NCBI GenBank assembly: GCA_029975165.1
Contig: JARKPR010000019.1
Coordinates: 1-60,887 of the forward strand
Length of the DNA stretch: 60,887 nt
From: Selenomonadales bacterium
GTDB lineage: Bacteria > Bacillota > Negativicutes > Sporomusales > UBA7701
Reading direction: 5' to 3'
Part shown: positions 12,695-28,162 of the stretch, one piece after another
Layout of the letters: every line of letters begins with the position of its first letter
Position numbering within the stretch: the stretch's first letter is position 1
Made by a program: the position numbers and the translations under genes
The notes under the pieces: model-generated
What the model was told of the DNA's origin: nothing
The model's database searches: none
The model's input: the letters and a program-made list of their open reading frames with translations, nothing else

Positions 12695-13019
12695 TAATAC
12701 ACCCCCAAAATATGTTATTTTTGGTCAAACTTCGTCGGCCGCAGAAAAATTCCTCCAAATATATAAGAAAAATATTAAACATTTTTTTTGCCTGAACTTG
12801 CCCCGCCGGCGTCCAATACGGCGCTGGGCGAGTTTTCTAATTCCGGCATATTATTATTGGCATGTCATATATTTGTAATGATTAAGCGGGCGATTCCCCA
12901 ATCTGGCAGCGAAGCTTGCCGCGCCCCGCTGCGGGAAAGGCTTTTGGGGAAGGGGTGACAGGGCTGAACGCGCAGATCGCTCATACATACAAACAGTAGG
13001 GGGAGGGAAACGAACGAAA
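12695..13019. other. Divergent intergenic region between porin-like gene and spoIVA
   Basis: No coding sequence is supported in these 325 bases. It must hold the promoters of both flanking genes. The left 150 bases are AT-rich. A CATACAAA at 12986-12993 resembles a sigma-E -10 (CATACAAT) 27 bases before spoIVA, but no good -35 is visible. Confidence 0.6.
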
Positions 13020-14498
13020 ATGGAAAAATTTGACCTGTTCCGCGATATTGCCGAACGGACCGGCGGCGACATCTACATTGGCGTCGTCGGGCCGGTGCGC
13101 ACCGGCAAATCCACCTTCATCAAACGGTTCATGGAGACGATGGTGTTACCCAACATCACCGATCCTTACGACAAAGAGCGGGCCAAGGACGAACTGCCCC
13201 AGTCCGCGGCCGGCAAAACCATCATGACCACCGAGCCCAAATTCATCCCCAACGAAGCGGTCGAAATCGTCGTCAAAGAAAACGTCAAAGTTCGTGTGCG
13301 GGTCGTCGACTGCGTCGGCTATACCGTCGACGGCGCCCTCGGTTACGAGGAGGAAGAGGGCCCCCGCATGGTCCTTACCCCCTGGGACGACCAGGAAATA
13401 CCCTTCCAGCAGGCAGCCGAGATCGGCACCCGCAAAGTCATTGCCGACCACTCCACCATCGGCCTCGTAGTCACGACCGACGGTTCGGTCACCGACCTGC
13501 CGCGCGATAGATACCTCGAAGCCGAAGAACGGGTCATCGCCGAACTCAAAGAACTCCAGAAACCGTTCCTCGTCGTCCTCAACACCGGCCAGCCGACCGC
13601 CAAGGAAACCCGCGAACTCGTGGCCAAACTCGAAAACAAATACGACGTGCCCGTCATCCCTGTCGACTGCCTGCAGCTCACCACCGACGACATCTACGCC
13701 ATCCTCCAGGAAGTCCTGTACGAATTCCCCGTCAAAGAAGTCAACATCACCCTGCCGCGCTGGGTGGAAGAACTGGAAACCGAGCACTGGCTGCGGCAGA
13801 AATTCGACGGCGCCGTCCGCGACGTCGTCCAGTACGTGCGGCGGCTCCGCGACATCGATCGCGCTATCGACGACCTGTCCGGCTACGACTTCGTCGCCGA
13901 CGTCATCCTCCACGACATGGACCTGGGCAGCGGCGTAGCCGTCATCGAAATGACCGCCCGCAGCGAGCTTTTCTACCAGGTCCTCGAAGAACTCACCGGC
14001 TTCACCGTCAGCGGCGAACACCATGTCCTCCGCCTCATGCGCGACCTGTCGGTCGCCAAGCGCGAACACGACAAACTCGCCGGCGCCCTCGAACAGGTCC
14101 GCCAGAGCGGCTACGGCATCGTGCCGCCCCAAGTCGACGAAATGGTCCTCGAAGAACCCGAAATCATCCGCACCGGCAACCGGTTCGGCGTGCGCCTCAA
14201 AGCCTCCGCCCCCTCCCTGCACATCATCAAGACCGACGTCCAGGCCGAAATCTCGCCCATCATCGGCACCGAAAAACAGAGCGAAGAACTCATCCACTAC
14301 CTGCTGCGCGAATTCGAAGGCGAACCGGAAAAACTGTGGCGCACCAACCTGTTCGGCAAATCGCTCAACGCCCTCGTGCGGGAAGGCATCCAGAACAAGC
14401 TCAACACCATGCCGGAAAACGCCCAGGTCAAACTGCGCGAAACGCTGCAGAAAGTCGTGAACGAGGGCAGCGGCGGCCTGATCTGCATCATCTTCTAG
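13020..14498 (+). CDS. spoIVA: Stage IV sporulation protein A (spore-coat ATPase scaffold)
   Basis: At 492 residues it matches the length of SpoIVA, which polymerises on the forespore surface using ATP and anchors the coat through SpoVM. MEKFDLFRDIAERTGGD and the P-loop GPVRTGKSTFIKRF are diagnostic, as are YTVDGALGYEEEEGPRM and the C-terminus ending GGLICIIF. GGGGGAGGG precedes the ATG. Its membrane anchor SpoVM appears to be encoded at 25810 in the same window. Dispersed element R3 and a terminator follow. Confidence 0.96.
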   Translation: MEKFDLFRDIAERTGGDIYIGVVGPVRTGKSTFIKRFMETMVLPNITDPYDKERAKDELPQSAAGKTIMTTEPKFIPNEAVEIVVKENVKVRVRVVDCVGYTVDGALGYEEEEGPRMVLTPWDDQEIPFQQAAEIGTRKVIADHSTIGLVVTTDGSVTDLPRDRYLEAEERVIAELKELQKPFLVVLNTGQPTAKETRELVAKLENKYDVPVIPVDCLQLTTDDIYAILQEVLYEFPVKEVNITLPRWVEELETEHWLRQKFDGAVRDVVQYVRRLRDIDRAIDDLSGYDFVADVILHDMDLGSGVAVIEMTARSELFYQVLEELTGFTVSGEHHVLRLMRDLSVAKREHDKLAGALEQVRQSGYGIVPPQVDEMVLEEPEIIRTGNRFGVRLKASAPSLHIIKTDVQAEISPIIGTEKQSEELIHYLLREFEGEPEKLWRTNLFGKSLNALVREGIQNKLNTMPENAQVKLRETLQKVVNEGSGGLICIIF

Positions 14499-25035: not shown

Positions 25036-25533
25036 ATGAACATCTACACCAAAACCGGCGATAAAGGCGAAACCTCCCTCTACAGCGGCGAGCGCGTCCC
25101 CAAGGACAGCCCGCGGGTCGAAGCCTACGGCACCATCGACGAACTCGACTCCGCCCTCGGCCTCGCCCGCGCCCTGTGCACGCATGACGACGTGCGCGCC
25201 GTCCTCCACGACCAGCAGAAGCTCCTTTGGGCGGCCATGGCCGAAGTCGCCACCCTCGGCGGCCAGCCGCGCATCACCGCCGCCGAAGTCGCCGCCGCCG
25301 AAGCGGCCATCGACCGCTTCACCGCCGGCCTGCCGCCCCTTGCTGCCTTCCTCATCCCCGGCGGCACTCCCGGCGGCGCCGCCCTCGACCTCGCCCGCAC
25401 CGTCGCCCGCCGCGCCGAGCGCCAGCTGTGGCGGGTCGCCCGCGCCGAACCTGTCGGCGAGCACGTCCTCGTCTACATCAACCGCCTCTCCGACCTCCTG
25501 TTCACCCTCGGCCGCGCGGAAACGGAAAGGTGA
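25036..25533 (+). CDS. PduO-type cob(I)alamin adenosyltransferase
   Basis: A 165-residue helical trimeric adenosyltransferase. N-terminal IYTKTGDKGETSLYSG binds ATP, AYGTIDELDSALG and the C-terminal RRAERQLWRV and YINRLSDLLFTLGR are diagnostic. It converts cob(I)alamin to adenosylcobalamin. It is unrelated in fold to CobO encoded at 8159, so the genome carries both. It sits four bases after ndk in the M42 operon. The gene is usually named pduO or cobA2. Confidence 0.9.
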   Translation: MNIYTKTGDKGETSLYSGERVPKDSPRVEAYGTIDELDSALGLARALCTHDDVRAVLHDQQKLLWAAMAEVATLGGQPRITAAEVAAAEAAIDRFTAGLPPLAAFLIPGGTPGGAALDLARTVARRAERQLWRVARAEPVGEHVLVYINRLSDLLFTLGRAETER

Positions 25534-25543
25534 CGGTCGCCCC

Positions 25544-25744
25544 ATGCCCATCTACGAATTCACCTGCCAACAATGCGCCAAGCGCTTCGAACAGCTCTGC
25601 CGGCTCGACTGGCAGGGCATAGTAGCCTGTCCGGCGTGCGGCAGCCGCGACCTCGCCAAAGGCTTTTCCGCCTTCGCCACCCCCGGCAGCGGCGGCGGCA
25701 ACTGCGGCGGCTGCGCCGGCGGCAACTGCGCCACATGTAAATAG
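25544..25744 (+). CDS. FmdB-family zinc-ribbon protein
   Basis: A 66-residue protein opening MPIYEFTCQQCAKRFEQLC with CxxC, then CPACGS as the second CxxC of a zinc ribbon. It ends in a Gly/Cys-rich tail (GGNCGGCAGGNCATCK) with four more cysteines, which could hold another metal. FmdB proteins were named for regulation near amide-utilisation genes, but their general function is unknown. It starts ten bases after the adenosyltransferase stop and is the last gene of this operon. Confidence 0.85.
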   Translation: MPIYEFTCQQCAKRFEQLCRLDWQGIVACPACGSRDLAKGFSAFATPGSGGGNCGGCAGGNCATCK

Positions 25745-25809
25745 TTGGCACGTGTTGGCCACTTTCCACATAAACTAATAGCGAATAAGTCGGGAAGGGG
25801 CGAGGAACG

Positions 25810-25887
25810 GTGAAACTGAAAATCTTCACGCTGTCCGTGCCACGGCCATTACGGCGGTTTATGCGCATATTTAGTAAAAATGGCTAA
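25810..25887 (+). CDS. spoVM: Stage V sporulation protein SpoVM-like peptide
   Basis: A 25-residue frame from GTG 25810 to TAA, preceded by AAGGGGCGAGG. It reads MKLKIFTLSVPRPLRRF and then MRIFSKNG. Compared with Bacillus SpoVM (26 residues), the pattern Tyr/Phe-Thr-hydrophobic-x-hydrophobic-Pro-basic-x-Leu-x-x, then hydrophobic residues and Arg, is shared, including the helix-breaking proline. SpoVM is an amphipathic helix that senses the convex forespore membrane and recruits SpoIVA, encoded at 13020. CATAAACT at 25769-25776 resembles a sigma-E -10 but has no -35. A terminator follows directly, making it a monocistronic unit. Assignment by pattern only. Confidence 0.7.
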   Translation: MKLKIFTLSVPRPLRRFMRIFSKNG

Positions 25888-25901: not shown

Positions 25902-25940
25902 ATAACCGCCTAAACAACAGGCGGTTATCTATTTATTCCG
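25902..25940 (+). terminator. Terminator after spoVM
   Basis: ATAACCGCCT pairs with AGGCGGTTAT around a 7-base loop (25902-25928), followed by CTATTTATT. Confidence 0.8.
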
Positions 25941-26077
25941 GCTGGTCGCCGCCATCTTTTTGCGGCCGGTATAGACAAAAGCAGGAATATTTGCATTTGA
26001 CAGAGAAATAGGAATACCGCATTTTCCCGCGCCGCACGATGTGTGAGCCACGAATATACCGCAAGGGGGACTTTGAT

Positions 26078-28162
26078 TTGAAAGAGTACAAAAGCGACAA
26101 AATCCGTAATGTTGGCATCTTCGCCCACGGTGGCGCAGGCAAAACCTCGCTCGCGGAAGCGCTGCTGTTCAGCGCCGGCGCCGTCACCCGTCTCGGCAAA
26201 GTCGACGACGGCACGGCCACGACCGACTTCGAGCCGGAAGAAATCAAGCGCAAAGTGACGATCAGCACCGCCCTCGCGCCGTGCGAATGGCGCGACCATA
26301 AAATAAATTTCCTCGACACCCCCGGCTACGCCGACTTCGTCGCCGAAGTCAAAGGCACGCTCAGGGCGGTGGACGCCGCGCTCGTCGTCCTCTGCGCCGC
26401 CTCCGGGGTCGAGGTCGGGACCGAGAACGTCTGGAAATACGCCGATGAAGCCGGCGTGCCCCGGTTCGCCTTCATCAACAAAATAGACCGCGAAAACGCC
26501 GACTTCGCCGCCACCGTCGCCCAGATGCGGGAAAAATTCGGCAACAACGTCGTCCCCATCCAACTCCCCATCGGCTCCCAGGACAGCTTCAAAGGCATCA
26601 TCGACCTCGTCAAAATGAAAGCCTACACCCCTGTGAGCGCCCCAGGCACCCAATACACCGAAGCCGACATCCCCGCCGACCTCCGGGACGAAGCCGAAGA
26701 AGCGCGCCTCGCCATGATCGAGGCCGCCGCCGAAACCGACGACGACCTGCTCACCAAATACCTCGAAGGCGAAGAACTCAGCGACGACGAAATCCGCACC
26801 GGCCTCGTCAAAGGCGTCGCCCAGGGGAAATTCTGCCCCGTACTGTGCGGCTCCGCCTACAAAAACATCGGCGTCCAGCAACTCCTCGACGCCGTCGTCG
26901 CTTACGCCCCCTCGCCGGAAAACACCGTCGCCAAAGGCCATAACCCCGTAAGCAAAGAAGCCGTCGAGCGCAAAACCTCCGACCCATTTGCCGCCATGGT
27001 CTTCAAAACCACCGCCGACCCCTTCGTCGGCCGCCTCAGCTACATCCGCGTCTTCGCCGGCCAGCTCAAAGCCGACTCCACCCTCTACAACGCCGTCCGC
27101 GAAAAGAGCGAACGCATCGGCTCCATCTTCACCATGCGCGGCAAAACCCAGGACGCCATGACCGTCGCCAACGCCGGCGACATCGTCGTCGTCCCCAAAA
27201 TGTCCGAAACCAAGACCGGCGACACCCTTTGCGACAAAGACAAGCCCGTCATCTTCGACCCCATCGTCTATCCCAAGCCGATGTTCACCATGGCCGTCGA
27301 AGCCAAAAACAAGGGCGACGAAGACAAAATCGGCAACGCCCTCGCCCGCATGGCCGACGAAGACCCCACCTTCACCCTCGAAAAAAACCTCGAAACCCAC
27401 CAACTGCTCGCCAGCGGCATCAGCGACATGCACATCGACGTCATCGCCGAGCGCATGAAACGCAAATTCGGCGTCGACGTCAAACTCAGCGACCCGCGCA
27501 TCCCCTACCGCGAAACCATCCGCAGCAGCGTCAAAGTCGAATACAAGCATAAAAAACAAAGCGGCGGCCACGGCCAATACGGCCATGTCTGGCTGCAGCT
27601 CGACCCGCTGCCCACCGGCACCGGCTTCGAATTCACCGAATCCATCTTCGGCGGCGCTGTGCCCCGCCAGTACTTCCCGGCCGTCGAAAAAGGCGTGCGC
27701 GAAGCCATGGTCAACGGCATCATCGCCGGCTACCCCGTCACCGACATCAAAGTCACCCTCACCGACGGCTCCTACCACGAAGTCGACTCCTCGGAAATGG
27801 CCTTCAAAATCGCCGCCTCCGGCGCCATCAAAAAAGGCGCCCTCCAAGCCAAGCCCATCCTCCTCGAGCCCATCTACAACGTCGAAGTCACCGTCCCCGA
27901 ATCCTACATGGGCGACATCATCGGCGACTTCAACAGCCGCCGCGGCCGCATCCTCGGCATGGAGCCCATCGGCGGCGGACTGGGCATGGTCCGGGCTCAG
28001 GTGCCGCTGGCCGAAGTCTTCCGCTACTCCATCGACCTTCGCTCCATGACCCAGGGCCGGGGCAAATTCGACATGAGCTTCGACCACTACGAAGAAGTGC
28101 CTGCGCGCATCGCCGAAGGCATCGTCGCCGCCAACAAGAAAGACAAAGAAGACGAAGAATAA
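26078..28162 (+). CDS. Elongation factor G-like translational GTPase (FusA2 type)
   Basis: A 694-residue, five-domain protein. G1 is AHGGAGKTS rather than the AHIDAGKTT of canonical EF-G, G3 is DTPGYADF and G4 is NKID; domain IV contains KQSGGHGQYGHVWL and domain V GDIIGDFNSRRGRILGM. The altered G1 and the absence of rpsL/rpsG/tuf neighbours mark it as the EF-G-like paralogue of Firmicutes, whose role is unclear. TTG 26078 follows AAGGGGG at ideal spacing. The upstream in-frame ATG at 26039 has no ribosome-binding site. A terminator follows. Confidence 0.9.
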   Translation: MKEYKSDKIRNVGIFAHGGAGKTSLAEALLFSAGAVTRLGKVDDGTATTDFEPEEIKRKVTISTALAPCEWRDHKINFLDTPGYADFVAEVKGTLRAVDAALVVLCAASGVEVGTENVWKYADEAGVPRFAFINKIDRENADFAATVAQMREKFGNNVVPIQLPIGSQDSFKGIIDLVKMKAYTPVSAPGTQYTEADIPADLRDEAEEARLAMIEAAAETDDDLLTKYLEGEELSDDEIRTGLVKGVAQGKFCPVLCGSAYKNIGVQQLLDAVVAYAPSPENTVAKGHNPVSKEAVERKTSDPFAAMVFKTTADPFVGRLSYIRVFAGQLKADSTLYNAVREKSERIGSIFTMRGKTQDAMTVANAGDIVVVPKMSETKTGDTLCDKDKPVIFDPIVYPKPMFTMAVEAKNKGDEDKIGNALARMADEDPTFTLEKNLETHQLLASGISDMHIDVIAERMKRKFGVDVKLSDPRIPYRETIRSSVKVEYKHKKQSGGHGQYGHVWLQLDPLPTGTGFEFTESIFGGAVPRQYFPAVEKGVREAMVNGIIAGYPVTDIKVTLTDGSYHEVDSSEMAFKIAASGAIKKGALQAKPILLEPIYNVEVTVPESYMGDIIGDFNSRRGRILGMEPIGGGLGMVRAQVPLAEVFRYSIDLRSMTQGRGKFDMSFDHYEEVPARIAEGIVAANKKDKEDEE

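Follow-up and report, generated by a model that had tools for sequence, protein, structure and literature searches.

The closest described counterparts of the gene reported here are the spoVM genes of Bacillus subtilis and C. difficile, both under sigmaE control (PMC517825 and PMC5607322, respectively). In B. subtilis SpoVM the P9A substitution makes the helix longer and destroys localisation (PMC4307972, PMC12004969), and proline has been tried at positions 7-13 (PMC12004969). For Clostridioides difficile, SpoVM is reported to bind SpoIVA directly and spoVM to be largely dispensable; the gene is co-transcribed with one encoding 50 amino acids (PMC5607322). Galperin et al. (2012), in the part of their paper drawn on here, left open the existence of distant SpoVMs beyond the reach of standard searches and had no complete genome of a Negativicutes spore former (PMC3533761). 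No description of a Negativicutes SpoVM is given in the parts of PMC3533761 and PMC7985256 drawn on.

The window analysed is the whole stretch of 60,887 nucleotides, contig C20 of the genome of a Selenomonadales bacterium of the class Negativicutes (G000; 4.19 Mb in 100 contigs, assembly 96% complete). Its features of interest are as follows.

13020-14498, + strand: spoIVA, encoding the expected partner ATPase (TIGR02836, 807.6 bits; Pfam ATPase, middle and C-terminal domains)
25036-25533, + strand: PduO-type cob(I)alamin adenosyltransferase, conserved 5' neighbour (TIGR00636, 174.4 bits)
25544-25744, + strand: FmdB-type zinc ribbon protein, 5' neighbour in part of the class (TIGR02605, 56.7 bits)
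25749-25751, + strand: putative -35 element CAC (AC-type), 17 nt 5' of the -10 element
25769-25777, + strand: putative -10 element CATAAACTA, of the mother-cell sigma type CATANNNTA
25795-25805, + strand: Shine-Dalgarno region AAGGGGCGAGG, 5-15 nt 5' of the GTG start
25810-25887, + strand: SpoVM-like coding sequence of 25 amino acids, GTG start, TAA stop, peptide MKLKIFTLSVPRPLRRFMRIFSKNG
25902-25928, + strand: intrinsic-terminator-like hairpin ATAACCGCC...GGCGGTTAT with a T-rich tail
26039-28162, + strand: elongation factor G (fusA-like), conserved 3' neighbour (NF009381, 980.6 bits)

We file the gene as SpoVM-like because it falls below the curated-model cut-off, lies away from the usual locus and lacks a sigmaE-type promoter. 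The first-pass annotation, which had read the frame as a spoVM hidden between genes, had foreseen neither the missing curated-model match, nor the unusual locus, nor the sigmaK-type look of the promoter.

A search for the peptide over 60 genomes (the source genome and relatives) gave matches in 44 at E <= 10. After each match had been inspected in its context, 42 copies were kept as credible, that of the window among them; the two dropped, from G053 (E 1.28) and G056 (E 0.72), come without a proper start, Shine-Dalgarno sequence or spoIVA. The 42 orthologues are 22-27 codons long and start, by the script's choice, with GTG (28), ATG (12) or TTG (2). Each has, no more than 20 nt from its start, a G-rich run of the Shine-Dalgarno type, and 37 have a hairpin with a T-rich tail within 100 nt past the stop, an arrangement seen in a fraction of 0.019 of shuffles. 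The ribosome-binding site and the terminator of its own that the first-pass annotation had claimed for the gene are thus present in the window and recur among its relatives. Within the window's 1-kb region terminator-like hairpins are not enriched, with one seen against 1.4 expected from shuffles.

Among 15 pairs drawn from six close relatives, the median pN/pS was 0.23 in the true frame; the shifted frames gave 0.86 and 1.99, after omission of the 6 and 3 pairs, respectively, that had no synonymous change. The amino-acid sequence of the 25-codon frame is under purifying selection, and on these comparisons the frame is a real, conserved and selected gene. Chance might be suspected for so short a frame in a window with 831 small-ORF starts, but it is left with next to no probability by the 42 orthologues, their 42 Shine-Dalgarno runs, 37 terminators and a mother-cell-type -10 element within the scanned stretch in 41 of 42, together with the purifying selection; conservation had already refuted it.

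The neighbours of the gene are conserved as well. At the 41 loci outside the window, the PduO-type gene lies 5' in 38 and fusA lies 3' in 38 (in 35 of them no more than 1 kb away), and no locus among the 41 lacks both. The FmdB-type zinc ribbon protein (25544-25744) has a Gly/Cys-rich tail, and its gene adjoins the SpoVM-like gene in part of the class only. An alternative explanation is that the frame encodes a regulatory leader peptide with an attenuator for the downstream fusA: in the window a short ORF with a hairpin stands 151 nt before that gene, and the corresponding distance to the fusA match is 140-426 nt in 35 of the 38 relatives in which fusA was found. In G046, G032 and G044, however, fusA is 1.5-1.9 kb off, and in G030 it was not found in the 5 kb downstream, yet the peptide is still conserved. 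The selection on its amino-acid sequence and a distribution that tracks spoIVA also speak against a leader. Given the conservation, the distribution and the variable distance to fusA, we rejected this explanation as highly improbable.

Curated models did not recognise the peptide. Neither the window peptide nor five of its relatives matched any Pfam or NCBIfam family at E <= 10, PF08183, NF033436 and NF011327 included; the B. subtilis SpoVM used as a control, which its own model confirmed, scored 61 to 76.8 bits. In the source genome no canonical spoVM was found with PF08183, and NF033436, run on it within the phylum sample, gave no match at E <= 0.1. Over 60 genomes of the class, PF08183 had one match over its cut-off, consisting of 12 residues within a 485-aa frame. 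No rival SpoVM was detected elsewhere in the Negativicutes genomes examined. The first-pass annotation had named a clear spoVM elsewhere and an unconserved frame as the findings that would tell against it; the frame proved to be conserved class-wide, and neither PF08183 nor NF033436 pointed to a canonical spoVM in the source genome.

For comparison at the profile level, SpoVM candidates from other Bacillota were collected with NF033436 from 199 genomes, with 10 over the cut-off and 52 matching at E <= 0.1. The SpoVM alignment holds 28 of the 30 candidates with loci (10 over the NF033436 cut-off and 18 below it). L103 (a weak match with a stop inside it) and L093 (identical to L092) were left out, and in rows G093, G195 and G166 M was substituted for the MV preceding the matched K. 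The 42 Negativicutes peptides gave 38 distinct rows, the start being taken one codon 3' of the script's choice in G055, G040, G019, G011 and G030. In hhalign the 38 Negativicutes peptides and the 28 SpoVM candidates were aligned with a probability of 94.8%, over 24 columns and with no internal gap. One proline is invariant in all 38 Negativicutes and all 28 SpoVM rows, and apart from the initiator no other residue is; it is Pro11 in the window peptide and aligns with B. subtilis Pro9. The mean z of the hydrophobic moment, calculated over shuffles, was 2.19 for the 38 Negativicutes peptides and 2.15 for the 28 SpoVM rows, so that by calculation an amphipathic helix follows the proline in the Negativicutes peptides, as in SpoVM.

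With a matrix made from the 28 SpoVM rows only, the frame outranked all other small ORFs at every one of the 42 loci, which are not independent of one another. In the window it scored 17.0 with a runner-up of -0.7 among 831 starts, a rank that is partly circular because the frame had been nominated for its SpoVM look. When the peptide was shuffled 100,000 times, 9 shuffles reached the window score. Because the weak SpoVM rows could have skewed this matrix, it was rebuilt from just the 10 over-cut-off rows (window 17.6, runner-up 2.0, first at 42/42; 1 of 20,000 shuffles) and from the 23 rpmB-adjacent rows (window 17.5, runner-up 1.0, first at 42/42; 0 of 20,000 shuffles). Over longer stretches the SpoVM-like ORF again came first, in G043 of 14,453 starts across 814 kb and in G031 of 7,518 starts across 419 kb. 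In the reverse direction, with the Negativicutes profile searched against 30 other genomes with SpoVM candidates, the SpoVM locus was the best match in three (G118, E 5.5e-4; G195, E 0.093; G064, E 0.162) and the second in G246 (E 0.469); it was not the best in 27 of the 30, nine of which had no match at all at E <= 10.

The Negativicutes peptides resemble B. subtilis SpoVM in several respects. Lengths are alike (22-27 residues, with 21-29 in the SpoVM rows), as is the succession of a short N-terminal segment, the invariant proline and a basic amphipathic helix. K-x-[YF], a leucine after the proline and the arginine at B. subtilis position 17 stand in register in the window peptide and, for the most part, among the relatives; the window peptide has F where the K-x-Y pattern has Y, and keeps L-x-x-x-x-R after the proline. 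Like SpoVM, the peptide lives with SpoIVA. Unlike B. subtilis SpoVM, the window peptide carries two extra N-terminal residues, and most Negativicutes peptides have a second proline at the position of Phe11 (P-x-P-L-R-[KR]). Gly13-Gly14 is replaced by RR or RK, and Lys7 mostly by S or T. The gene itself is set apart by its place away from rpe-rpmB, its AC-type promoter and its lack of a curated-model match. The extra positive charge that had been claimed for the window peptide holds for the RR at the Gly-Gly place but not for the sum, as ordinary SpoVMs have net charges from 3 to 9 (mean 5.7) and the window peptide has +7; it is charge placement, RR instead of GG, that distinguishes the peptide. 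Both the second proline and the basic residues in place of Gly-Gly could change membrane behaviour, and may make for a shorter helix with a more basic polar face. Since the B. subtilis work moved the proline across positions 7-13, this natural P-x-P version bears on curvature sensing.

The C. difficile protein is likewise a SpoVM from an anaerobe outside the Bacilli, and the source genome too has stretches of the SipL family (PF12673), three of them on two contigs. Unlike C. difficile spoVM, the Negativicutes gene has promoter-like and terminator-like sites of its own, the promoter being AC-type. A third point of comparison is MRFYVFRVPRFLRSLLRLFIRSK, a SpoVM candidate from outside the class but within the same phylum (G118), which scored 22.7 bits with NF033436 (cut-off 31) and 21.8 bits with the Negativicutes profile, and so is matched by the models of both families. 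It shares VP-x-x-LR-x-x-x-R with the Negativicutes form, but has no second proline and lies in the canonical rpe-[small membrane protein]-spoVM-rpmB-asp23-yloV locus. In sequence, the G118 peptide looks intermediate between the Negativicutes form and SpoVM.

The partner gene spoIVA, which the first-pass annotation had placed at 13020, was identified there by TIGR02836, and the same model found it in 43 of the 60 genomes of the class sample. The SpoVM-like ORF is present in 42 of these 43, the one exception, G026, being an assembly only 58% complete. Among the 17 genomes without spoIVA, 15 had no match and two (G053 and G056) had matches at chance level, leaving credible copies in 0/17. Counted by GTDB family, the ORF occurs in 19/19 families with spoIVA and, after review, in 0/10 without it (2/10 before review), with Fisher p values of 5e-8 reviewed and 1e-5 raw, which overstate independence as the families are related. 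As judged from these matches, the SpoVM-like gene is distributed with spoIVA across the sampled Negativicutes.

The locus differs from that of spoVM in other Bacillota. At the 30 SpoVM-candidate loci examined there, rpmB adjoins 24; one or more of rsgA, rpe, rpmB, asp23 and yloV were found at 25, with none at the remaining five. These gene names are presumed, having been assigned by similarity. At both of the loci with listed ORFs, a small membrane protein is encoded between rpe and spoVM (L082, 1320-1478, + strand; L098, 1612-1884, - strand). When 22 ORFs of the window served as queries, the 30 loci contained none of them, so that ancestral synteny is absent, and the Negativicutes gene does not occupy the canonical position in rpe-spoVM-rpmB-asp23-yloV. 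The Negativicutes genome G043 consists of a single contig; the genes after its rpe are unrelated, its rpmB lies 78 kb off, and no SpoVM-like ORF stands beside either. In the 400 kb of G031 examined for the old locus, neither rpe nor rpmB was found. From the lack of shared synteny and the empty surroundings of rpe and rpmB in G043, spoVM appears to have moved from its usual rpe-rpmB site, the old site being empty in the one genome checked.

A different locus, a different promoter type and the lack of any SpoVM-model match might also be expected if the true SpoVM had been lost in the Negativicutes and a different mother-cell peptide of the coat or cortex had converged on a basic amphipathic helix after a proline, and homology is hard to prove for peptides so short. 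We consider this unlikely. Convergence would have to account for 24 gap-free aligned columns with coinciding invariant prolines and for the peptide MRFYVFRVPRFLRSLLRLFIRSK, encoded between rpe and rpmB in G118 and matched both by NF033436 and by the Negativicutes profile, and the original SpoVM would have had to disappear from the very genomes in which the convergence took place. The reading of 25810-25887 as a 25-codon spoVM is supported by the profile comparison, the SpoVM-only matrix and the co-occurrence with spoIVA. The frame is very probably a diverged Negativicutes form of SpoVM, the amphipathic mother-cell peptide that tethers SpoIVA; it most likely descends from SpoVM and works like it.

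The promoter-like sequences bear on when such a peptide would be made. CATANNNT occurs 34-75 nt 5' of the start in 41 of the 42 copies, within the scanned stretch, and in the remaining copy (G016) CATACAATA lies just outside that stretch. AC stands 16-17 nt before CATA in 37/42 copies (0.016 in shuffles) and ATA 15-17 nt before CATA in 3/42 (0.013 in shuffles). In C. difficile a -35 ATA denotes sigmaE and AC denotes sigmaK, the -10 elements of the two being very similar (PMC3789822). The residues by which sigmaE and sigmaK distinguish these -35 sequences are described as conserved in both Clostridium and Bacillus (PMC517825). From this promoter, mother-cell expression is expected; in most of the 42 copies the sequence does not point to early (sigmaE) transcription there. 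Comparison genes were taken from among the 42 genomes, spoIVA in 11 and spoIIIAA and spoIID in 12. An ATA-type promoter precedes spoIVA in 11/11 (at one shared site in 10, and elsewhere in G016), with AC-type matches at other places in 3/11. For spoIID the ATA type was found in 9/12 and the AC type in 1/12. Neither type precedes spoIIIAA in 12/12, its -10 element being CATATCTATG where visible.

The plain reading of the promoter thus suggests late, sigmaK-type control of the Negativicutes SpoVM-like gene. The exact pattern AC-N17-CATANNNTA is not enriched across the source genome (18 places, against 25 in the reversed control). Several of the 18 places directly precede an ORF with a start and a ribosome site, and these ORFs encode, among others, MurE-, MurC- and CwlD-type proteins and a SipL-family protein on contig C49. 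MurE-, MurC- and CwlD-type genes are early rather than late in B. subtilis, and the source genome gave no sigK match over the cut-off, so that late timing of the SpoVM-like gene is tentative. The AC-type mother-cell-like promoter on contig C49 (G000:C49:15661-15689, - strand) lies 29 nt before the SipL-family (PF12673) gene.

On the preferred reading of the frame as a diverged SpoVM, the mother cell would make a peptide of 22-27 residues during sporulation, in which the proline would end a flexible N-terminus and set it off from the basic amphipathic helix. We infer membrane curvature sensing and SpoIVA binding from the SpoVMs of B. subtilis and C. difficile. As in B. subtilis, the helix would insert flat in the convex outer forespore membrane; SpoIVA would bind the membrane-bound peptide and polymerise, and the coat would be built on SpoIVA. 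We also put forward, tentatively and with somewhat less than even confidence, that the base of the coat has been rewired in the Negativicutes, with spoVM relocated, given a second proline and placed under late sigmaK-type control, and SpoIVA still made early (sigmaE-type) and reaching the forespore without SpoVM, which would act later. In such a scheme SpoIVA might reach the forespore through SipL-like proteins, and the late SpoVM might lock the coat down or serve the cortex or outer-membrane spore features. If the sigmaK-type promoter is real, the timing of coat anchoring would differ between lineages of spore formers.

Under the curated models the sporulating Negativicutes, the spore formers that have an outer membrane, look as if they had no SpoVM, whereas a diverged copy is found in 42 of the 43 sampled genomes with spoIVA. 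The Negativicutes peptide would be a case of a distant SpoVM missed by standard searches, and the alignment of 38 sequences can seed an annotation model.

Some further observations were made on sporulation genes in these genomes. In the source genome no sigK match exceeded the cut-off, the sole match (254 bits, below the cut-off) resembling a sigE-like paralogue group; a match over the cut-off was found in 20 of the 42 genomes searched. In G031, G013, G001, G055, G028, G024 and G043, sigK is split, its two parts lying about 3 to 52 kb from each other, with break points at about residue 137-157 and about 109-116. Two different break points suggest skin-like insertions at two separate sigK sites in the class. 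The gene dpaA (dipicolinate synthase subunit A, TIGR02853), wanted as a late-gene control, was matched in 0/12 Negativicutes genomes at E <= 1e-20, the source genome included, and with no match in any of the 12, these spore formers presumably rely on a different enzyme to make dipicolinate. Upstream of spoIVA, at 12859-12884 of the window, the sequence GGCATGTCATATATTT[AG]TAATGATTA is exact in 6 of 11 loci and shows small changes in some others, a conserved stretch that exceeds the needs of a lone -10 element.
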